From Tateyamaria sp. ANG-S1 (GTDB taxonomy: Bacteria > Pseudomonadota > Alphaproteobacteria > Rhodobacterales > Rhodobacteraceae), in contig NZ_JWLL01000004.1 of NCBI RefSeq assembly GCF_000814025.1, positions 124,001-188,000 of the forward strand: a stretch of 64,000 bases of DNA, read 5' to 3'. Below the pieces are notes generated by a model. It saw only the letters and a list, made by a program, of their open reading frames with translations, had not been told where the DNA came from and did not search any database. The translations under genes and the position numbers were made by a program. This document shows, piece by piece, positions 32,737-48,141 of the stretch (the stretch's first letter is position 1; every line of letters begins with the position of its first letter).

Positions 32737-35700
32737 CTAGTAGTCCCGTTCGATAAAGATGCCGATGCCCGTATTGCCATCGCCACCCACCGATCCACGC
32801 GCGGTGATGTTGGGGGTCAGGTCGATGTTCAGCGACACTTCCGGTCCGTCCGCGCCGCCCACCGTCACGTCGGTATAGACGTTTTCCGACAGGTAGCGCC
32901 CTGCGCGCACGGCCGTGTTGCCCTCTTCATCCGACGCCACATCCAGGTCGTCGAGGCCGAACGAGCCCCGCAGTTGTGACACCACTCCTTCGCCACCTGC
33001 ACCGGCGAGGCTGGCCACCGCACTGGCCAGTTGTAACGCCTGGAACGCAGACAATTGGCTGATGTCGCGGCCAAAGATGATCTGGGCCAGGACCTGATCC
33101 TCGGGCGCTTCGGGGGTGGCTTCGAAGCGGACATCGGGATCGTCTGCTGGTCCGTCCACGATGATGCGTGCCGTGCCGGTCGAGGTGTCGGTCTCAACGA
33201 CGAACAACAGGATCGGTTCGAACCGGCCTTGCAGGGTGACACGCCCCTCGTCCAGGGTGAAGCGCTGCGCGAGGATGCTGAGCCGCCCCCGGATCAGGTC
33301 GAATTGTCCTGTCGAGATGATGTCCGCCGTGGTGCCGGACAGGCGCAGCCTGCCCCCCAGTTCCGCGTCAAGGCCCCGACCGCGGATGAAGATGCGGTTG
33401 GGGGCGTTGATCGTCAGGTCGAGCGGATAGGCTGCCCCGGTGCCCCCTGCGCTTTCTTCCCGGATCAGCCCGGCGCGGGCTTGCGTGCGCATGACGGGGC
33501 GCGTGGCCCCGATATGGGTGATGTCGGGGATTGCGCCAAAGCTCGCGATCCCGGTCGAGGGAACTTGTACGTTTGTTTCACCAAGGTTGAGCGCGCCTGA
33601 AATGGCGGCCCCCCCGGTCAACGGCCCGCGCAGATCGACCCGTCCGTCTACAGTTGTGGAGTAGAGTGTCGGGTCTTTCAGCAGGACAGCGTTCAACGCC
33701 ACAGCCAGTTGCGCAGAATACCCACCGTTCAGTGTGATGGGACCGGAGATGGCGACCGACCCGCCCTCTGCAATGGCTGCGTTGAAGTCGAGCGCGGCCT
33801 GTCCACCTGAAAGCTGCACGACGCCGGACAGATCCGAAATCGTCACCGGCAGGTTCGGTGTGGCCACCCGCGCACCTTGTGTTGTGATTTGACCGGACAC
33901 CGAACCGAGCGCGGGCGGGCCGTTCATGGCCAGGTCAAAGCGTGCTGTGCCAAGGATGCTGCGGGGTGTGATGAATGGATTGATAAGGCCCAGTTGAAGC
34001 TGGCCTTGGGTGCTCAGGTTCAAGGTACCGTCGGTTTGGACACGCCCTGTTGCCGTAGCCGTCGTTCCGGAGGGGCCAGCGATCTGCGTGTCGATGTCAA
34101 AGGCGTCTCCGACCTGTTGCAGCGTGCCGTTGACCGACGCACCGCCGCTCAAACCGGGCACGAGCGGTGCAACATTCGGCAGGCTCAGCGCGTAGCGCGC
34201 CGCTGCGACCCCGTCAGTGAGCGAGGCCGAGACGCGGCCCGTGCTGTTGTAAGGGCCTGCCACATCTGTCACCACGTCCCAACCGGTCGCCGTTTGCGTC
34301 AACGTGCCGTCCAGGTTCAGCGGACCGCGCACGCCGGGTGCAACAGCGGCCACATTGGGCACAGACAGGTCGAAATCCGTGACAAGCGTGTCTTCGAACG
34401 TGCCCGAAAGCGTGCCACTGCTGTCATAGGGACCGCTCAGCGCGGTGTCGAACGCCCAGCCCTCTGCCGTCTGGCGCACATCGCCGTTCAGCGCGGCACC
34501 GCCTGGCACACCGGGGGCAAAGGCCGACAGGTTCGGGGCGGATACGTCATAGCGGGCCGACAGTCGTGTTCCGTCGAAGAGGCCCGTAACTGCAGCCCGT
34601 GCCTCGGCCGGACCGTCGATAGTGGTGTCAAACTGCCACGCGCCGTCCCGTTGCGCGGCAGTTGCCGTCAGGCGCACTGGCGCGTTGATCTGTGGGACGA
34701 GCGCTTGCAGGTCGGCCACGCGCGCATCAAGCGAGATGTCGGTTTGGTCGCCCGCAACGCGTGCCGTCGCTGTCGCAGTCGTCTCAAGAGGGCCGGTCAA
34801 GGCGCCGGAGATGTCCCAGACCTCACCCGTCTGCGTCGCCGTACCATCCATGGTGATCGGACCCGCGACCGCTTCGGTGACAAGCCCCGCATCCGCCAGC
34901 GAGGCGTTGAACCGCGCGACCGACGCGCCGGTGCGCAGATCAGCCGATGCCGTGAGGTCCAGCGCCTCGTTTTCCAGCGTCAGGCGGTCGAGGACGGTCC
35001 CGGTCGTGTCGCGCCGCGCCGCAAGCACCACGTCCGTTTGCCCAGCCAGCACAGGGTCAGCCTGCGGGATACCAACCGCCAGATCGCGCGTCTGGCCGGT
35101 CACGGTCACATCGAAAAACCCACCCAGTGCGGCGGTGCCCGAGGCCGACAGGTCGCCCGCGCCCGACAGCGCCACCCCGGCAAGGTCTGCAAATGCCGAC
35201 AAATCCTGCGCGGACAGGTTGGTGTCAAAGCTGGTTTCGAACCCGTCATCGAACCCGCTGACCTCGACTGTGCCGCCTAGGGCCCACGCCGCGCCGGTGA
35301 GAGCCAGGTTCGCCAAACGCAGCGGCGCGTCGTCGGCATATGCGATGTTGAGCCCACCGCTGACCGTGTCACCCACCGCACGGGCAAGGCCCGTGTCCGA
35401 GAGCGCGATGCCATTGGCGCGCAGATCCAGCCGCCCCTCCAGCGCACCTATGGCGTCCACATCCCTGCTGAGCGTGCCGTCAAAGGTCAGCGCGACCTCA
35501 TTCACCGCGTCGTCGTTTTGATCGAGATCCGTTGCTGTGATCCGGGCTTGCAAGGCATCGCTGCGCGCCGCGTCAAAGGCGATGTCGAGGGCCGCTTCGG
35601 CAATGGTGGTGCCACCGGTGCCGGGCAGGGTGACCGGCGTGCCGTCGGGGTCGCGCAGCGCCCCTTCGATGTCGAGCAGCGTGGGCCAGCCGTCACTGTT

Positions 35701-36666
35701 CAGGCTGGCCTGGCCCGCCAACGCGACCGAGCGGGCTGTGAGCGCGAAGCTTTCGAGCGTGAGCGCACCGTTTGCATCGGTGCTGCCTTGCGCCGCAAGG
35801 CCAACATCAGTGCCGAAAAAGTCTCGGTATTCCTGCAAGACAAGGGCGGAGATGTCGCCATCCAGCGCGGCGTCAAACGCCATTGGCCCGTCCGCTTGGT
35901 TTTGCAGTGCAAGCGTACCCGCCAGCCGGGGTGTGTCGTCTGTGCGGAGGTCCAGCGTCGCGTTGAAGTCGCTCAGCGCACCTGATCCGTTGACCGTCAG
36001 ATCAACACTTGGGCGGTCCGGTAGGTTCAGAAGGCCGGAGATCAGTCCATTCTCGGCCTCGCTCAGCCCCAGATCCAGTGTCAGATCGCGGGTGTCATTG
36101 GCATAGGCCGCGGTGACATCGAAGCTGGCGCGCGCGCCGTCCGTGCGTGTTGCGTTGATCGTTGTGCTGCCCGCACCGTCGGCCAGCTCCGCCGCGCCGG
36201 ACACCGACAGTACCGCCGCTTCGCCAAGCAGAGGTGCGCCAAGCGATACGGCACCGAGATCAAGCTGCGCGATGCGGATGGCTGCCGGCAGGTCCGGCAG
36301 GGCAAAAGGTGTCGCCTCGGGTGCGGGCAGATCAGTGCCCTGCGCGACCGGCAGGCGCGGCAGGTCGATGCGCGCGGCGCGCAGTTCCTGAATGTCGATT
36401 GTCGCGCGGAACAGGGCCGCACGGTTCCACTGCATCGCAATGTCTTCGAGGGTCAGCCAGATGCCTTCGCTGTCGGCGATGGTGATCCGTTCGATGGTGG
36501 CACGGCTGCTGAGCGCGCCTGCGAAGCCGTCGATGCGGACCGTGCGCCCTTCACCGCCCAGGCTGCTTTCCAGAAGCCCGACGATAAACCCGCGATCCTC
36601 ACCCTCTTGCGCCGATGCTGCGATCGGCCAAAGCAGGACCAGCCATATGCAGAACAGTCGCCGCAT
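32737..36666 (-). CDS. tamB: translocation and assembly module protein TamB
   Basis: A 1309-residue AsmA-like protein. It has an N-terminal signal/anchor (MRRLFCIWLVLLWPIAASAQ), a long region of repeated beta-groove segments, and the C-terminal TamB (DUF490) domain (LDLTINAPNRIFIRGRGLDAELGG in pieces, then IIFGRDISQLSAFQALQLA and VGGADGPEVSLNIDLTPNI). TamB spans the periplasm and with TamA inserts outer-membrane proteins and moves phospholipid. Internal segments repeat around 'VTGLFDGTRLSARYDVSAPN' and 'SVPNVAAVAPGVRGPLNLDG', giving several tandem units of about 70 residues. Its ATG overlaps the tamA stop (TGATG). Confidence 0.92.
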   Translation of the reverse strand: MRRLFCIWLVLLWPIAASAQEGEDRGFIVGLLESSLGGEGRTVRIDGFAGALSSRATIERITIADSEGIWLTLEDIAMQWNRAALFRATIDIQELRAARIDLPRLPVAQGTDLPAPEATPFALPDLPAAIRIAQLDLGAVSLGAPLLGEAAVLSVSGAAELADGAGSTTINATRTDGARASFDVTAAYANDTRDLTLDLGLSEAENGLISGLLNLPDRPSVDLTVNGSGALSDFNATLDLRTDDTPRLAGTLALQNQADGPMAFDAALDGDISALVLQEYRDFFGTDVGLAAQGSTDANGALTLESFALTARSVALAGQASLNSDGWPTLLDIEGALRDPDGTPVTLPGTGGTTIAEAALDIAFDAARSDALQARITATDLDQNDDAVNEVALTFDGTLSRDVDAIGALEGRLDLRANGIALSDTGLARAVGDTVSGGLNIAYADDAPLRLANLALTGAAWALGGTVEVSGFDDGFETSFDTNLSAQDLSAFADLAGVALSGAGDLSASGTAALGGFFDVTVTGQTRDLAVGIPQADPVLAGQTDVVLAARRDTTGTVLDRLTLENEALDLTASADLRTGASVARFNASLADAGLVTEAVAGPITMDGTATQTGEVWDISGALTGPLETTATATARVAGDQTDISLDARVADLQALVPQINAPVRLTATAAQRDGAWQFDTTIDGPAEARAAVTGLFDGTRLSARYDVSAPNLSAFAPGVPGGAALNGDVRQTAEGWAFDTALSGPYDSSGTLSGTFEDTLVTDFDLSVPNVAAVAPGVRGPLNLDGTLTQTATGWDVVTDVAGPYNSTGRVSASLTDGVAAARYALSLPNVAPLVPGLSGGASVNGTLQQVGDAFDIDTQIAGPSGTTATATGRVQTDGTLNLSTQGQLQLGLINPFITPRSILGTARFDLAMNGPPALGSVSGQITTQGARVATPNLPVTISDLSGVVQLSGGQAALDFNAAIAEGGSVAISGPITLNGGYSAQLAVALNAVLLKDPTLYSTTVDGRVDLRGPLTGGAAISGALNLGETNVQVPSTGIASFGAIPDITHIGATRPVMRTQARAGLIREESAGGTGAAYPLDLTINAPNRIFIRGRGLDAELGGRLRLSGTTADIISTGQFDLIRGRLSILAQRFTLDEGRVTLQGRFEPILLFVVETDTSTGTARIIVDGPADDPDVRFEATPEAPEDQVLAQIIFGRDISQLSAFQALQLASAVASLAGAGGEGVVSQLRGSFGLDDLDVASDEEGNTAVRAGRYLSENVYTDVTVGGADGPEVSLNIDLTPNITARGSVGGDGNTGIGIFIERDY

Positions 36667-38450
36667 CAGAACGCCTGCCCGATGCCGATGTAAATCTCGA
36701 CCCCGGAACTGTCACCGGGGCCGGAGCCGGGCAGCGCCACATCAAATCGGATCGGGCCAATCCCTGTGTCGTAGCGCACCCCGGCGCCAAATCCGGTGTG
36801 CCATTCGCCCGAGCCGTCAAAGAAGCTTTCTGATCCGATATAGCCCGCGTCATAGAACCCTACGACCGAGAACCGCTCGCCGGTCTTGACCCGCATCTCG
36901 CCCGAAAGCCCCAAGAATGACCGCCCGCCGATGGTCACACCCGGGCTCAGCTCGACGCCAAGCGATTGATAGTCCTGCCCGCGCACCGTCCCGCTGCCGC
37001 CGGAGAAGAACAGAAAGTCTGCGGGGGCCTCTTCGATGGACGGACCGGCAACCGATCCAAGCAGCCCGCGTACGGCCAGCACCACGCGGTCGCCAAACTT
37101 GCGATATGTGCGTAGGTCAAGCGTTGTCACAACGCCGTCGCTGGTGCCGTCGATGTTGATGAACGGGCGCAACGAGGCCTCGGCATAGTATCCGGCGGTG
37201 GCGTTTAGCTCATTGTCGCGGCGATCAAAGGTGGCTTTGATGGGGAAGGTCAGGATGGTGTAGTCCCGTTCGCCCAGGTCGTCGCGCGTGCGTGCGCGTT
37301 GCAGGCCCACGCCGTAGCTGTATTCGCGGTCTTCGCTGGCAAAGTAGACTGTACTGAACTCAAGCCGACCGGTGCGGGAGAACAGGTTTGGATCATCGCG
37401 CTGCTCGATCTCGGCCAGCAAGACGGCCTCAAGGTCCGTGCGCCAGGTGGCAGGGCGGGACAGTTGTGCGCCAAGCCGAAAATCGACGCCATCCGTATCG
37501 CCACCGACGCCGGAGATCTGACCGTCGATCTGCAAACGCTCAGCGCCGCCAAAGATGTTGCGATGCAGCCAGAGCGCGCTGACGCTGACGCCATCAGTGG
37601 TCCCGTATTCTGCGCCAAAGCGGTAGCGGCGCGGCAGTTGGTCGGTGATTTGGGCGGTGATGTCGAGCGTGCCATCGGGGTTGGGCACATCGGCCTCGGT
37701 CAGGCTGGCGCTGGCAAAGGTACCGGTCCGCCGAAACCGCCCCTCGACCTGGTCCAGCGTGTCGGGATCAAACACTTCTCCGCTGGGCCAGCCCGCAATC
37801 TCGCGCAGGCGCTTCTCGCGGACGTTGCTTTCGCCCTCTATGTTAAGACGCCCGAGGCGCAGGCGCGGGCCCGGGTCCAGGCGAATGTCGGCGTTCAACT
37901 GGCCAGCCGGGTGGTTTGCAACGATCTGCTGATCTGACACGGCGGCCTTGGCATGGCCCTGCTGCCGCCATCCTTCGATCCCTGCCTCTGTCGCGGTGCG
38001 AAGTGCAGAGACGTTGGCAGTTTCGCCACGGGCCGCCTGAAAAACGGGCTCTGTGCCCTTTGCTGTGGGGCTGACAGTCACAGTGCCGAAGGTAAAAACC
38101 TTGCCCGGATCTACGGTCACGACCACGGAGCGGACCGCGCCGGGTGGCGAAACCGGCGACAGGCTGGCAGCCTCGCGCCCATCCACGGTGATCGAAATGG
38201 TGGGGCCGAAATAGCCTTTGTCGTAAAGCAACCCTATCAGCCGGGCATAGTCCGCCTGTGCTGCGCTGATGACGTCGATGGCGCGGGGGGCTGTGTCTTC
38301 TTCCGGCAAAGCTGCGGTCAATGAGGCCGCGCGCAATTCCCCAGCGAGATCATCGGGTGCGCGTACCTCAACTGTGAGGGCCAATGCGGCCCCCGCCGCG
38401 CCAAACGTGGCGCCGATCACTGCCAAAACCTGGCAGACAGTCCGATACAT
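36666..38450 (-). CDS. tamA: outer-membrane assembly protein TamA (BamA/Omp85 superfamily)
   Basis: A 594-residue outer-membrane protein with a signal peptide (to about residue 25), POTRA domains (LIGLLYDKGYFGPTISITVD, GKVFTFGTVTVSP, LGRLNIEGESNVREKRLREI) and a C-terminal 16-strand barrel domain beginning near residue 290. The barrel has the Omp85 motif GGSGTVRGQDYQSLG and ends in GPGDSSGVEIYIGIGQAF with terminal Phe. It partners TamB encoded immediately downstream. The unusual ABC-exporter-like gene ends 103 bases upstream on the same strand and may share a transcript. Confidence 0.92.
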   Translation of the reverse strand: MYRTVCQVLAVIGATFGAAGAALALTVEVRAPDDLAGELRAASLTAALPEEDTAPRAIDVISAAQADYARLIGLLYDKGYFGPTISITVDGREAASLSPVSPPGAVRSVVVTVDPGKVFTFGTVTVSPTAKGTEPVFQAARGETANVSALRTATEAGIEGWRQQGHAKAAVSDQQIVANHPAGQLNADIRLDPGPRLRLGRLNIEGESNVREKRLREIAGWPSGEVFDPDTLDQVEGRFRRTGTFASASLTEADVPNPDGTLDITAQITDQLPRRYRFGAEYGTTDGVSVSALWLHRNIFGGAERLQIDGQISGVGGDTDGVDFRLGAQLSRPATWRTDLEAVLLAEIEQRDDPNLFSRTGRLEFSTVYFASEDREYSYGVGLQRARTRDDLGERDYTILTFPIKATFDRRDNELNATAGYYAEASLRPFINIDGTSDGVVTTLDLRTYRKFGDRVVLAVRGLLGSVAGPSIEEAPADFLFFSGGSGTVRGQDYQSLGVELSPGVTIGGRSFLGLSGEMRVKTGERFSVVGFYDAGYIGSESFFDGSGEWHTGFGAGVRYDTGIGPIRFDVALPGSGPGDSSGVEIYIGIGQAF

Positions 38451-38553: not shown

Positions 38554-41500
38554 TCAGGTTGTGACGTAACCCGCCACCACTTGCAGCAGGCGGAAGGCTG
38601 TAGCTGCGTCGTTCTCGACCACGGCCATGAATTCCTCTTCCCCGATGCGCAGGCACGTGAGGTCAGATTTGGCACGCATGTCGAGCGCGCGGGGCTCGCT
38701 GCGGATCAGGCCTAATTCACCGACCAAGGCACCGGACCCTACTGTCGCGATCAAGGTGTGTTCTGACCCGTCCTGCGGCAGCAGGAGGTCTGCTTCGCCT
38801 TCGGTGATCATGTACGCGCCATCGGTCGGATCGTCGTTCTTGTGAAAGACGTATTCGCCCGGCTGTGCGCTGTACCACCGCGCACCAAAGGCCAGCAGAC
38901 GCAGCTGGCGGCGCTTGAGCCCCGCGAACATGGGTGCTTGCCGCAGCGCCTCGACCTTGCGTGCCAGATCGGCGCTGGCGTCGCTGCCGATGTCGGCGCG
39001 TTCTCCTTCTGCGCCTTGTAGACGGCCCTGTACCACCTCGACATGTGTATCAAAGACCTGGTCGTCTTCGAAGGATGTACCAAGGAAAACCAGCGTCGCA
39101 TCCGGCAGAAGCTCACGCAGTTTTTCGATCAGGGAGGTGCGTATCTCGTCCCCATAGCTCGCCATAGGCTCATCAAGGATCAGGATGTCGGGGCGCTTGA
39201 TGCTGGCGCGGCTGATGGCAAGCGGTTCCGCAAAAAGTGCGGGCAGGTTGGCGCCACCCAGCGCGATTGGCACGTCAAAGACCAGCTCAAGCACAAGATG
39301 GCTCATGCCTGCCTCGGTCAGCACATCCACGACAATGCCGCGCAAATCGTCCGCACGTGCGCCTGCACTGTCGGCCACTTTGCCGAACAGGGCGTTTTCG
39401 AGAACGGACAGGCCATGCACGTGTTTGTCAGCTTCGATGGGGACAAAGATGTCCTCCATTTGCGCCCGCAGTGTCGCCCCATGTGCGACCCGCATATCCA
39501 GCACTCGCTGGCGGACCTCTTCGGGGAAGGCGGCGGCCACCTGTTCCGCGGTGACGTTGGCAGGCACGCTCAGCAGCAATGCCAGTTCCTTGTCCGAGAT
39601 GTCGGAGCCTTCCGGCTTGCGCTCCACCAGTTCCAGCGCTGCGTTGTAGACTTCGGCCTGCAATCCCACGCGCTGGAACAGCGGGTGATCGGTGCCGTTC
39701 GGGCCAAAGGTCTGGCGCAGCATTTCCAGAATGTTCCGCGCGAGCATTTCCAGATTTGACGCCAGCGACAGGTCGTGCAGCAGGCGTAGGAAGTCCAGCT
39801 TCTCTTCGACCACCTCGGGCGTGATCGTGATCTTTGGCGTGGCGTATAGCAGGTTCTGCGCAATCGGCAGCGCCGGGTTGTAGCTGTCGGGATGGAAGCT
39901 GTGCACATGGCGGTCCAGCCCGGCCTTTGCCACGGCGGCCGCGACCTTGGGGCGCAGCGCGACCAGAGTTTCGGCCAGCTCGGCGTTGCGCTCCGCATCA
40001 AAGGTCTGGTCCATGGTGCGCCGGGTCAGGGCGTCGCCGCTGCCACTGCCCGCAATCAGCGTATACCACCAGGCCCGCAGCGCGTCCTTGTCCGGCACGC
40101 CCGCGATGCTAGGGTCGAGCCATTGAGCGTCGAGCATGTCGGCACTGTTGCCTGCGCGCAGAGCCTCGCGGCTGAAATCGCTTTCGGCGGCTGCTTCGGT
40201 CGGGGCAAGCCGCATGGGCATCATCACGTTTTGCCCATAGCTGCCCTGAAACATGATCGGCCGCGAGGTCGCATGACCGATCCGCTTGGCAATCGCGGTC
40301 TGGTGGAGGGTGCGGATATCGTGGCCTGCAAGGGTGACGGAGCCGCTGGTGGGCAGTGTCTCGCGCGTCAGCACCTCGGCCAATGCGCGGCGGTCCTCGT
40401 CATTTGGGGCGGTGATCCCGATGCTTGTCCCTGCAGGTACAGTGAGCGAGATGTCCTCAAGCACGGCATTCCCGTCGCCATCGCGCACCGTGACCTGATC
40501 CAGCACGATGTCCCCGGTCAGGCGCGGCGTTTCGGGGGCGGGGCCGTAGAACAGGTCGTCGTCGATCATGCCCGCTGGCGCGAAGCGTTCAGTGATGGTC
40601 TCCCACCGCAGGGACATGTCGGCGACCTGGTTGTAGTAGGCCAGCAATTCTTTCCACGGGCTCGACAGGTCCTTGTAAGCCGCAAGTGCGGCGACGAGCG
40701 CGCCGATCGTCACCTCGCCTTGGATGACCAGGTAACCACCGATGGAAAAGAAGAAGAACGGGGTCAGCTGTGTGATGAAGTTGTTGAGAAACTTCATGAA
40801 GAATTTCTTCTGGTAGATCTCGAACCGGATGGCAAAGAGGTTGCCTAACCGATTGCCGATCATCGCCATACGGTAGCGCCAACCGCCATTGACGCGCAGG
40901 GTGCCTGCACCTGCGGCCCCTTCGCCAATCTCCGCCGCCAGCGCGCGGACCTGGATTACGCGGCTCTTGTTCAGCAGGTTGATCTGGCGTTGCAGCTTGG
41001 GGATCAACCACGCTTGCAGCGGGATCAGCGCGATGGCGGCAAGACCAAACGCCACCGACTGGAAAAAGAGAAAGCCGAGGATCGTCAGCATCTGACCGGC
41101 CTGCAGCACCGGCTGGGCAATCGCATCGCCCATTAACCCACCCATAGGCTCACTTTCAGCAGTGACCATGCTGACCAATTCACCTTGGCTCGTGCGTTCG
41201 AAATAGGGTTGCGGAAAGCGCAGGATGCGGGCGATCAGGGTGTAGCGGAACCGGCGCAGCAGTCGCTCGGCCAGCACGCCTTTCATCGTATTGATCCGCA
41301 TCTTCAGAAGACCATGACACAGCACCGCCAGCAGGAACCCGCCGCACAGGATCATCAGGTAGGTGATCTGGTCGAACTCGAAACCATGGGCCGATACAGT
41401 CGCGGAACCGGAGCCGATGGCATCGTTGATGATCCGCTTGGGCAGCTCCAGCGTCAGATAGAGCAGCGGAAACAGCATCAGCGTCACCGCCAGCAGGATC

Positions 41501-41595
41501 AGCTGGTCGCGCTTTGAATAGATCCAGATAAATCGAAAGAGGGAGCGTTCTATGGTGCCGGTCCACGTACTGAAAAGGGCGGGCAAGGCGCCCAA
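38554..41595 (-). CDS. degenerate ABC-exporter protein with large NBD insertion and cyclic-nucleotide-binding domain
   Basis: A 1013-residue protein. Residues about 30-345 form an ABC exporter membrane domain (six helices; intracellular-loop motif RFPQPYFERTSQGELVSMV). The nucleotide-binding domain starts near 362 (GDIVLDQVTVRDGDGN), but the Walker A site reads GITAPNDEDRRA at 393-404, with no GxGKS/T. The Q-loop and switch histidine are also absent; the signature is only LGGANLPALFAEP (779-791). Walker B DILILDEP (803-810) is intact. About 270 residues are inserted between 455 and 725. Residues about 880-1010 are a cNMP-binding fold (FAGLKRRQLRLLAFGARWYS, YMITEGEADLLLP). It precedes tamA-tamB on the same strand. 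ATP use by this subunit alone looks unlikely. Confidence 0.82.
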   Translation of the reverse strand: MGALPALFSTWTGTIERSLFRFIWIYSKRDQLILLAVTLMLFPLLYLTLELPKRIINDAIGSGSATVSAHGFEFDQITYLMILCGGFLLAVLCHGLLKMRINTMKGVLAERLLRRFRYTLIARILRFPQPYFERTSQGELVSMVTAESEPMGGLMGDAIAQPVLQAGQMLTILGFLFFQSVAFGLAAIALIPLQAWLIPKLQRQINLLNKSRVIQVRALAAEIGEGAAGAGTLRVNGGWRYRMAMIGNRLGNLFAIRFEIYQKKFFMKFLNNFITQLTPFFFFSIGGYLVIQGEVTIGALVAALAAYKDLSSPWKELLAYYNQVADMSLRWETITERFAPAGMIDDDLFYGPAPETPRLTGDIVLDQVTVRDGDGNAVLEDISLTVPAGTSIGITAPNDEDRRALAEVLTRETLPTSGSVTLAGHDIRTLHQTAIAKRIGHATSRPIMFQGSYGQNVMMPMRLAPTEAAAESDFSREALRAGNSADMLDAQWLDPSIAGVPDKDALRAWWYTLIAGSGSGDALTRRTMDQTFDAERNAELAETLVALRPKVAAAVAKAGLDRHVHSFHPDSYNPALPIAQNLLYATPKITITPEVVEEKLDFLRLLHDLSLASNLEMLARNILEMLRQTFGPNGTDHPLFQRVGLQAEVYNAALELVERKPEGSDISDKELALLLSVPANVTAEQVAAAFPEEVRQRVLDMRVAHGATLRAQMEDIFVPIEADKHVHGLSVLENALFGKVADSAGARADDLRGIVVDVLTEAGMSHLVLELVFDVPIALGGANLPALFAEPLAISRASIKRPDILILDEPMASYGDEIRTSLIEKLRELLPDATLVFLGTSFEDDQVFDTHVEVVQGRLQGAEGERADIGSDASADLARKVEALRQAPMFAGLKRRQLRLLAFGARWYSAQPGEYVFHKNDDPTDGAYMITEGEADLLLPQDGSEHTLIATVGSGALVGELGLIRSEPRALDMRAKSDLTCLRIGEEEFMAVVENDAATAFRLLQVVAGYVTT

Positions 41596-41714: not shown

Positions 41715-42095
41715 TTGACCGACCCCGTTACATTTGCCCTGGCCCTGCTGTTTCTGCTGCAGGCCAAGCATCTGTTCGCCGACTTCTACCTTCAGACACC
41801 GCGGATGCTGGCGAACCGGGGTGTCTACATGCATTTCGGACGGCTGCAACACGCCGGGCTCCATGCCGTCGGATCGCTTGTCGCCATGGTGCTGGTGGGG
41901 GTGCCGGTCTGGCTTGGCTTCGTCGTCGCGATCGCAGAATGGGTCGCGCATTTCCACATCGACTGGGGCAAGGGGCGGTGGTCCGAACACACCGGCCACG
42001 ACCCGAGCCAAGGCGGGTTCTGGCGCGCCTTCGGCCTGGATCAGGCGCTGCACCAATGGACCTATCTGATCATGGTCTGGGTGGTTCTGCCTTGA
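41715..42095 (+). CDS. DUF3307-family membrane protein
   Basis: A 126-residue integral membrane protein with three to four helices and conserved polar residues in them: FLLQAKHLFADFYLQTPRML near residues 13-32, YMHFGRLQHAGLHAVGSLVA, AHFHIDWGKGRWSEHTGHDP and LHQWTYLIMVWVVL. These match DUF3307. It uses a TTG start with GAGAGGT upstream. The His/Asp-rich helix ends suggest a membrane enzyme, but no function is established. It is divergent from the ABC-exporter-like gene. Confidence 0.75.
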   Translation: MTDPVTFALALLFLLQAKHLFADFYLQTPRMLANRGVYMHFGRLQHAGLHAVGSLVAMVLVGVPVWLGFVVAIAEWVAHFHIDWGKGRWSEHTGHDPSQGGFWRAFGLDQALHQWTYLIMVWVVLP

Positions 42096-46436: not shown

Positions 46437-47063
46437 CTACGCAGGTGTCAGGCCCAGCCCCGACAACGCCCGGATGTGCCTGATGATCTCGTCCACACCC
46501 GTGCCGTGACGCAGCGCTGCAAAGACAAAGGGCCGTTCCCCGCGCATCCGTTTTGCATCCTGCTTCATCACCTCCAGTGACGCGCCGACATGGGGGGCGA
46601 GGTCGGTCTTGTTGATGATCAGCAGATCCGACTTGGTGATGGCCGGGCCACCCTTGCGCGGGATTTCCTCACCCGCCGCCGTGTCGATGACATAGAGCGT
46701 GATGTCAGCCAACTCGGGCGAGAACGTTGCCGACAGGTTGTCGCCTCCGCTCTCGATCAGGATGGCTTCCACATCCGGATGCCGTTCCCGCATCTCGGCT
46801 ACGGCGGCAAGGTTGATCGACGCATCCTCGCGAATGGCGGTGTGTGGGCAGCCCCCGGTTTCCACCCCGATTATACGGTCCTGTGGCAAGATCTGACGGC
46901 GCATCAACTCCTCCGCATCCTCCTGCGTGTAGATGTCGTTGGTGATCACCCCGATGGAATGCTGATCCTTGAGGGCGGCGGCAAGCGCGGCGGTCAGCGT
47001 CGTCTTGCCCGCACCCACGGGACCACCGATACCGATGCGAAGCGGGCCATTGAGCTGTGTCAT
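46437..47063 (-). CDS. ureG: urease accessory GTPase UreG
   Basis: A 208-residue SIMIBI GTPase with P-loop [13 protein letters not shown] (residues 10-22). The nickel and dimer motif [18 protein letters not shown] carries the Cys-Pro-His site, followed by LIESGGDNL and the base-specificity motif [12 protein letters not shown]. It drives GTP-dependent delivery of nickel to apo-urease with UreD, UreE and UreF. The ATG at 47063 overlaps the ureF stop by four bases. Length is normal. Confidence 0.96.
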
Positions 47064-47689
47064 GTGCGAAAAATCCTCGGTTGCAGGGTTTCGTGACGCA
47101 TGGCTGCAATATCGGCAGCAAAACTGGCGGATGAAAGAGCCTCTAGCGGGATTTTCTCGGCCTCCTGCGCGGTCTCCGCGATGATGGGGGACAAGGCAGC
47201 TAATACGGTTTGCCCATCTGTCTGCCCAAGGGGCAGGGCGCGCTGCGCGACTGACACGAGGTTCGAGGCAAAGGCATGCAGGTAGAGTGGCACCGTCTCG
47301 GCTAGAGGAATGTCTACCGCGCGCGCCGCAGCACCCACAGCGACGGGATAGGTCAGACCGGCAATCTCGATCCCCCAGACAGCGCTGGCGGTGTCGCAAA
47401 ACGCTGCGCCTTGCAGGTCGGTCTCCTTCAACCGCTCGGCCCCGGCGGCAAAGGCGCGGGCCGTGGCGTCCACGTCTGCAGGATCGTCTGCGCGATAGCT
47501 TGCCGCAAGTAGGATGGCATCTGCACGCCCCGACCCATGCTCCAGCAGATCGCCCAGCCAGTCCCGCAGCGTGTCCGCATCCGCGACAACCTCGTCCGCG
47601 ATCACCTGCTCCAGCCCATGCGAATATGCGAACGCCCCGACCGGAAAGGCCGGGGAGAGCCATTGCATTAGGGTCAGCGCGTGGCTCAT
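47060..47689 (-). CDS. ureF: urease accessory protein UreF
   Basis: A 209-residue all-helical protein starting [28 protein letters not shown], the family's N-terminal motif. It forms the UreDFG complex on apo-urease and acts as a checkpoint for UreG GTP hydrolysis. Its C-terminus [21 protein letters not shown] is typical. It overlaps ureG by four bases and ureE by four bases, so the three accessory genes are translationally coupled. Confidence 0.94.
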
Positions 47690-48141
47690 GAGTGGCTGTG
47701 CGAGTGATCGTGGCCGTGGGTACGCCCGTGGCCGTATGCCCCGCCTTCGGGCGTAAATGGCTCGACAACCTCGCGCGTGGTGGCCCCGATCTTGGCCAGC
47801 ATATCTGCCATCACGTGATCACGCTGGATCAGCAGGCGGGTGTCCTCGATCTGGCAGGGGGTATGGCGGTTGCCGATGTGCCAGGCGATCCGGTGCAGCT
47901 TGTCACCGGTGACTTCCAGCAATGGCTCGGGTGCCGCCTCGATCCGGATCTCAGCCTTGTCGGTGGTGATCAGCGCCCCGCCATGGTCAAGCGAAGTGGT
48001 CTGTGGCAGGTCGACCAGCAGTTGCGCCCCAGAGGCGAGGGTCAGCACCTTGCGGCGCAGGAAACGGTCTTCATAGGTCAGCGACACGTGATCGCTCACC
48101 TCTCCATGCGTGTGATCGTGGTAGTGCTGCGCCGTCAACAT
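47686..48141 (-). CDS. ureE: urease nickel metallochaperone UreE, His-rich tail
   Basis: A 151-residue protein with the N-terminal peptide-binding domain ([20 protein letters not shown]), the metal-binding domain ([16 protein letters not shown]) and a C-terminal [15 protein letters not shown] tail that binds extra nickel. It also starts His-rich ([10 protein letters not shown]). It supplies Ni to UreG. A DUF1127 microprotein gene ends 16 bases upstream and may share the transcript. Confidence 0.94.

Follow-up and report, generated by a model that had tools for sequence, protein, structure and literature searches.

Introduction

Heterodimeric ATP-binding cassette (ABC) exporters such as BmrCD, TM287/288, TAP and CFTR carry one degenerate nucleotide site, the other site being canonical. 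In MsbA and the type I ABC exporters a membrane domain is followed by a nucleotide-binding domain (NBD), and in HetC-like exporters a domain binding cyclic nucleotide monophosphates (cNMP), of the type of PKA and CRP, is tied to the exporter. Here we describe a gene of Tateyamaria sp. ANG-S1 that has something of each of these systems. It lies on the reverse strand of a 64,000-nucleotide stretch of contig NZ_JWLL01000004.1 (the whole of which is called the window throughout) and belongs to a family marked, at the level of sequence, by the loss of catalytic motifs, an internal repeat, pairing with a cNMP sensor, co-occurrence with glycosyltransferases and, in the clade of the window, conservation of an ATA or ATC codon at the start place. 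From this we infer a protein that would not hydrolyze ATP, would be gated by a cyclic nucleotide and would act on a glycan substrate. We give an even chance to the whole proposal, namely that of an ABC-fold component of glycan export that does not hydrolyze ATP, is under cNMP control and is held at low levels by a start sensitive to the initiation factor IF3.

The protein resembles MsbA and the type I ABC exporters in the order of its membrane domain and NBD and in its PDB sequence matches to PCAT, BSEP and ABCB10 chains, but it differs from them in the loss of the Walker A, signature and H-loop motifs, in about 278 residues lying between motifs, and in its cNMP partner. With the degenerate-site heterodimers it shares degenerate catalytic motifs; unlike in them, a search of the vicinity showed no canonical partner, and a complete site is present in 0/86 members of the aligned family. 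HetC, in the portion of the source available, is described as a peptidase-containing exporter, whereas here the cNMP domain accompanies a degenerate NBD in a glycan setting (PMC10986499). Finally, a conserved non-canonical start is shared with infC, pcnB and, in Staphylococcus aureus, ccpN and cvfC1 (AUU/AUA starts), although here it belongs to a large membrane protein, extends as ATA/ATC over 27 orthologs of one family, and occurs beside an infC that itself starts with ATA/ATC.

Domain Architecture and Family

The open reading frame (ORF) at 38554-41595 on the reverse strand is open over 1013 codons. Its product matches Pfam ABC_membrane (residues 53-304), ABC_tran in two pieces (the best at 379-467) and cNMP_binding (911-996), all over cut-off, with ABC_membrane ahead of ABC_tran as in a type I exporter. 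The best NCBIfam match, TIGR02203 MsbA_lipidA (E 5e-32), reaches 111.1 bits against a cut-off of 602, which leaves the protein outside MsbA. A preliminary description of the window, made from the letters alone, had recognized the membrane domain of an ABC exporter, followed by a degenerate NBD that carries an insertion and by a cNMP-binding tail. Pfam and the motif positions bear out this architecture, with an insertion of about 278 residues, and all the motifs it quoted were located in the ORF product: GITAPNDED (393-401), SYGQNVMMP (452-460), PIAQNLLYATP (577-587), SVLENALFGK (730-739), LGGANLPAL (779-787), DILILDEP (803-810) and FLGTSFEDD (837-845). Of the 37 invariant columns of alignment A2, 28 fall within the first 338 residues. 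The strongest constraint thus acts on the membrane domain, and for this reason it is probably still the working part.

Relatives occur in 31/149 genomes of the same family (E 1e-60), in 58/190 of the class (E 1e-40) and, by profile search, in 21/299 of the phylum (E 1e-100). A scan of named genomes confirmed at least 557 stretches, of which the best 80 were kept as the wide loci; these 80 are mostly alphaproteobacterial, together with some metagenome-assembled genomes labeled Beta-, Gammaproteobacteria or Anaerolineae. Named relatives include Ruegeria, Tritonibacter and Sulfitobacter, from which the bacteria of the window's group are called Rhodobacteraceae-like below. In a tree of 101 rows, a wide clade (W) stands apart from a fused group that holds the clade of the window (A) and a paralog clade (B), with a support of 99 for A+B and of 60 for A alone, the long-branch locus L213 standing beside A. 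The tree assigned sixteen of the B loci, the others being B by identity. Clade A orthologs from 23 other genomes show about 54-64 percent identity, and their frames run open for 999-1028 codons. The window's genome also has a full-length paralog elsewhere, at 51 percent identity, and such a second copy, at 49-53 percent (B-type by identity), is present in 21 of the 25 genomes of the family sample in which clade A is represented.

Two particular cases stand out. Genome G055 holds a third, very divergent copy, the long-branch L213, whose search match counts one stop. On pSymB of Sinorhizobium meliloti 1021, the ABC match is split over two frames (L214 15001-18205), while in some other strains it is in one piece. 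In the part of the literature at hand, SMb20813 of S. meliloti is named an msbA homolog (PMC10945364), though its identity with this pSymB copy could not be shown, and smb20804 and smb20805 are tied to capsular polysaccharide in the consulted portion of PMC5539429, their position beside the pSymB copy not being established. No account of this ABC family was recognized in the literature, which was judged mostly without full texts.

Loss of Catalytic Motifs

The motif alignment comprises 86 rows (22 of clade A, 3 of B, 61 of W) hand-picked from 103 candidate references. Clade letters in the motif and replacement-motif counts stand for identity to the window and not for the tree; of the three B rows so assigned, one (L034) was placed by the tree outside A+B. 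The glycine pair of LSGGQ, expected of an ABC exporter, was found in 0/86 members, as was the full set of Walker A Lys, adjoining Ser/Thr and Walker B Asp. Lys with Ser/Thr, as GxxGxGK[ST] demands, occurs in 0/22 rows of clade A, 0/3 of B and 3/61 of W, and these three are all without the Walker B Asp; the rows of clades A (22) and B (3) showed no P-loop pattern. Among the wide members, the Ser/Thr place of Walker A (place 8) is acidic in 47/61, the Walker B Asp is kept in 3/61, and both have been lost in 54/61. At the P-loop place, clade A carries a different, constrained replacement motif, with Arg in 22/22 rows and Asp or Glu before it in 22/22.

The degeneration is specific, since the six other ABC-type ORFs found in the window's genome by the same protein search have GxxxxGK[ST]T, LSGGQ and DE in 6/6 cases. 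The preliminary description had left it as a question whether the loss of Walker A is family-wide, an intact GxGKS in homologs being what would reduce the case to one mutated copy. Lys with Ser/Thr in only three of the 86 members answers that question in favor of a family-wide loss, these three lacking the Walker B Asp. A single mutated copy can thus be set aside, the aligned family being degenerate throughout, and a conserved non-canonical ABC protein is supported instead. The same description had regarded Walker B as normal: DILILDEP is indeed present here, but its Glu is no clade feature, as it occurs in 1/22 clade A rows, the window's own. Altogether, the family seems to have lost parts normally needed for ATP use.

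The Cyclic-Nucleotide-Binding Domain

The cNMP-binding fold announced at the end of the protein holds up well, as it exceeds the PF00027 cut-off and has both phosphate-binding residues. The cassette Arg is conserved in 97/97 domains (70/70 separate, 27/27 fused) and the Glu in 91/97 (67/70 and 24/27, respectively). The domain is fused to the ABC protein in clades A and B and in a few wide members. Beyond the window's bacterial family, a gene of its own is the usual state of the domain: a separate cNMP ORF exists in 70/80 wide loci, and 68 of these 70 fall between -163 and +525 bases relative to the ABC stop, with a median of 25; the other 10 loci are without a separate ORF in the cluster, and 5 of them have ABC ORFs of more than 1000 residues. 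PDB sequence matches of one separate relative include PKA, PKG, Epac and Crp/Fnr-type chains.

Insertion and Internal Repeat

Within the NBD, segments 2 and 3 of the region between the motifs match each other with an hhalign probability of 98.9 (E 2e-17) and constitute a real internal repeat. Segment 1 matches them weakly (probability 14-18, E about 1e-3). The duplication into three segments proposed at the outset therefore stands for segments 2 and 3, and segment 1 was dropped as an equal third copy.

Glycosyltransferase Neighborhood

The genes recurring around the wide loci were grouped in homology clusters, each named from one representative, mostly from its Pfam match. GT4 recurs in 62/80 loci, GT28 in 64/80, a histidine phosphatase in 51/80 and Methyltransf_17 in 40/80, along with a deacetylase-like cluster in 45/80 whose representative has no Pfam match and was named from a matching Sulfitobacter annotation. 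At least one glycosyltransferase-cluster ORF is present in the fetched flank of 67/80 wide loci. In Rhizobium leguminosarum, three glycosyltransferase genes, the ABC gene and the cNMP gene are consecutive, and in Sulfitobacter dubius a full-length fused ABC gene comes directly after glycosyltransferases, phosphatase and deacetylase.

The association is also seen across whole genomes. In the class, a GT28/MJ1255-like gene was found in 57/190 genomes and the ABC gene in 58/190, with 55 shared (Fisher 1.7e-41), and in the family the former is present in 31/31 of the ABC-positive genomes among 149 (p 6e-25); the E-value limits are of our own choice, and both p-values ignore shared ancestry. When positions were compared in 25 clade A genomes, the two genes shared a contig in 9, with 20-41 kb between them in 8 of the 9. 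In the window's genome, the glycan cluster (L247 6478-12868) consists of a methyltransferase, a deacetylase-like gene, a GT28-like gene, a histidine phosphatase, two GT4 genes and a GT28/MJ1255-like gene.

The Start Codon

The TTG at 41595, called as the start, is probably wrong, and the true start would be the ATA at 41553-41551, giving 999 residues. At the place of the ancestral Met1, the 27 clade A orthologs (26 genomes plus Ruegeria sp. TM1040) have ATA in 18 and ATC in 9, that is, in 27/27; 26 of them were obtained with a pattern in which codons 0 and 1 were free, and L184 (ATC), missed by it, came from a separate count. The aligned start is ATG in 17/17 loci of clade B (a first count covered 16 of the 17, and a recount found ATG also in L213) and in 57 of the 74 wide loci, among 80, that were scored. 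The second codon is GAA in 26/26 clade A orthologs. ATA accounts for 36/1356 of the other Ile codons in 25 clade A genes and for 17/25 at the start place, with a binomial tail of 1.4e-21 if orthologs are assumed to be independent.

Upstream of this codon, third bases and residues vary freely, and several clade A loci have in-frame stops within 12 codons; in 14/24 loci there is no ATG, GTG or TTG between the ATA/ATC codon and the upstream in-frame stop. Downstream, residues 10-20, which the search pattern left free, are highly conserved. The pattern used for entropies, matched by 25/25 loci, had Ile and Glu fixed as codons 0 and 1 along with several later residues, so that the zero entropies at these two codons are forced; a recount with both free agrees with the earlier start-codon counts. 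A G is kept at -10 in 26/26 clade A sequences vs. 5/17 of clade B; in a set of 25 clade A loci, G stands at -10 in 25/25 and at -11 in 21/25. The conserved codon, the Shine-Dalgarno (SD)-like spacing and the lack of a canonical start in 14/24 loci are, as sequence evidence, what a gene with a non-canonical start would present, and together they argue strongly that the ATA/ATC codon is the start. The annotated coding sequence of Ruegeria sp. TM1040 begins 17 codons downstream, at a TTG.

The infC genes of these bacteria share this start class: among 25 genomes, 23 have ATA and 2, including the window's, have ATC, preceded by an AGGA-type SD. These were 24 clade A genomes, the window's included, and G055, with TM1040, G119 and G087 left out; infC was found by one pattern in 21/25 and by a second in the other 4 (loci L219 and L220-L243). 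G055, although among the 24 genomes of the infC and TamA searches, is without a clade A copy. AUA starts of S. aureus infC and ccpN have been reported, and IF3 is said, in the part of the source consulted, to modulate such initiation (PMC13009471). The ATA/ATC start codons common to the ABC gene and infC suggest that IF3 may control the ABC gene too. As for non-canonical starts, the portion of PMC3305630 at hand gives ATG/GTG/TTG ratios, new starts being checked there for canonical codons; a word search of the available part of PMC6308992 returned no passage on start codons; and no report on this ABC gene was recognized in a literature judged mostly without full texts.

Other Neighbors in the Window

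The coordinates of all features are collected in Table 1. Flanks of the orthologous clade A loci were fetched up to 8 kb on each side and are shorter at contig ends (L177, L180, L183, L195 and L197, the last two reaching about 0.3-0.4 kb past the ABC gene); the neighbor ORF search missed the ABC gene itself in L191 and L207. TamA- and TamB-like genes, labels that rest on NCBIfam matches below cut-off, stand next to the ABC gene in the window. In the fetched flanks of the other clade A loci, TamA/TamB was found in 0/23, while TamA has a match in 24/24 genomes searched; in the 23 clade A genomes this match is either on a contig other than that of the ABC gene or over 50 kb distant from it. These counts rule out a TamAB partnership as a conserved link, although a strain-specific co-transcription of ABC and tamAB is possible.

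For the divergent DUF3307 gene, the likely start codon is TTG or GTG in 21/25 loci and ATG in two, as counted by eye. Further along, at 46437-48141, the window encodes proteins that resemble, also by eye, the urease accessory proteins UreG, UreF and UreE.

Table 1. Features of the window around the ABC gene, in window positions.
Feature	Positions	Strand	Basis
Probable true coding sequence, degenerate ABC exporter-like protein, 999 aa, ATA start	38554..41553	-	ORF and start-place comparison
Elbow helix and transmembrane domain (ABC_membrane), the family's most conserved part	40576..41553	-	Pfam; invariant columns
Probable ATA initiation codon, aligned with relatives' ATG	41551..41553	-	27/27 clade A orthologs ATA/ATC
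Shine-Dalgarno-like GG at -11/-10 before ATA	41563..41564	-	Base counts in clade A
Walker A place, reading GITAPNDED; acidic/Arg replacement motif conserved across clade A	40393..40419	-	Motif alignment
About 278 residues, Q-loop-side N456 to third N-x-L-F-G motif (N734)	39394..40227	-	Invariant N456, N581, N734
Repeat copy, segment 2, residues ~543-625	39721..39969	-	hhalign; ends inferred from alignment
Repeat copy, segment 3, residues ~697-775	39271..39507	-	hhalign; ends inferred
Degenerate ABC signature LGGANLPAL	39235..39261	-	LSGGQ glycine pair in 0/86 members
Walker B DILILDEP	39166..39189	-	Glu in 1/22 clade A rows, the window's own
H-loop place without His, FLGTSFEDD	39061..39087	-	His 0/22 clade A, 27/61 wide
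cNMP-binding domain, phosphate-binding cassette VGELGLIRSEPR at residues 958-969	38608..38865	-	Pfam PF00027, 57.9 bits, E 1e-15; cassette census
TamA-like Omp85 protein, adjacent here, outside the conserved system	36666..38450	-	NCBIfam BamA and TamA matches below cut-off
TamB-like protein, adjacent here, outside the conserved system	32737..36666	-	NCBIfam match below cut-off
Divergent DUF3307 gene, recurrent clade A neighbor	41715..42095	+	Pfam PF11750; 23/23 other clade A loci

Discussion

What is conserved suggests a membrane protein that lacks a standard ATPase and works together with a cyclic-nucleotide sensor and a glycan cluster. In the mechanism that we propose, a type I ABC-exporter fold would no longer be an ordinary Mg-ATPase: its NBD, lacking the usual handling of Mg2+ and of the gamma-phosphate and holding a duplicated segment, would be paired with a PKA/CRP-type cNMP-binding domain, fused to it in the window protein. 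The membrane domain would act on the product of the glycosyltransferase cluster as flippase, scramblase or assembly component, with a cyclic nucleotide as its switch, either in place of ATP hydrolysis or above it. In the window clade, translation would begin from AUA or AUC, the start class shared there with infC, from which one would expect little synthesis of the ABC protein, and more of it under IF3 limitation. The further claim that a glycan or glycolipid is moved without ATP hydrolysis under cyclic-nucleotide gating, with an AUA/AUC start under infC-like IF3 control in Rhodobacteraceae-like bacteria, is a tentative one, which we would sooner doubt than assert.

Several observations weigh against this proposal. 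Wide members retain the Walker A Lys in 36/61, the Walker B Glu in 39/61 and the switch His in 27/61, and the Walker B Asp persists in 16/22 clade A rows, so that some members may still bind or slowly hydrolyze ATP. After the cassette Arg, clade A has PRAL vs. PRTA in the separate proteins, so that clade A may differ in the ligand chosen, or in whether one is bound at all. Of the genomes with the glycosyltransferase, 8/39 in the family and 2/57 in the class have no ABC gene, and 3/58 class genomes with the ABC gene have no glycosyltransferase; in the window's own genome, the two lie on different contigs. The anti-SD duplex energy is modest as well: its mean is -5.6 vs. -4.2 in shuffles, and the window's own value is -3.9.

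The retained Glu and His, together with a P-loop place 7 that is Lys in 36/61 and Arg in 20/61 wide members, would suit an exporter that is still driven by ATP, in which acidic residues or the repeat stand in for the usual Mg ligands; as the signature glycines are absent in 86/86 members and the P-loop pattern from all the clade A and B rows, we find this rather unlikely. A comparable small share of our belief goes to the degenerate half of a heterodimer, formed either with a canonical ABC half-transporter or between A and B, and giving a degenerate site. Such exporters are well known, according to the part of PMC7756269 consulted, and the second copy in 21/25 clade A genomes would offer a partner, but G110, G108, G119 and G100 have no full B copy, wide-clade genomes mostly have one copy each, A and the three examined B rows are both degenerate, and no canonical ABC partner stood out among the recurrent neighbors, a result that concerns neighbors only and the part of their clusters that was identified. 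Nor do we expect much of a purely regulatory scaffold, whose membrane domain would anchor a cNMP-controlled platform tuning the glycosyltransferases: lost catalytic motifs, a retained cNMP cassette and co-occurrence with glycosyltransferases would all agree with it, whereas the concentration of 28/37 invariant columns in the membrane domain goes beyond the needs of an anchor.

Much less credible than any of these is a pseudogene or decaying copy in which the ATA is merely an internal Ile and translation comes from upstream. The window does have in-frame TTG codons at -14 and -11, and 10/24 clade A loci have some in-frame ATG, GTG or TTG upstream; on the other hand, the other 14 have none, upstream stops come close in several loci, the ATA/ATC codon is where conservation drops, and position -10 retains its G. 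The open orthologs in 23 other genomes, with their constrained motifs, rule out the pseudogene. Equally remote is the view of the preliminary description that the protein is a partner of TamA/TamB in a shared envelope lipid path. The adjacency it reported, on one strand and at 103 bases, is real in the window, but it is repeated in 0/23 orthologous loci while TamA matches lie elsewhere in the 24/24 genomes searched; a role in an envelope path is plausible, and its link to TamA/TamB unsupported.

If the proposal of a cNMP-controlled, non-hydrolyzing component is true, a cyclic-nucleotide sensor would have replaced or overruled the ATPase throughout a large and conserved lineage of ABC proteins, and this would bear on whether ABC membrane domains can function without hydrolysis. 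The glycosyltransferase link names a candidate pathway, and the conserved ATA/ATC start shows how annotation can truncate such genes, as in Ruegeria sp. TM1040. On the further, more doubtful claim, an ABC pump would have been turned into a second-messenger-gated flippase and brought into an IF3 regulon.

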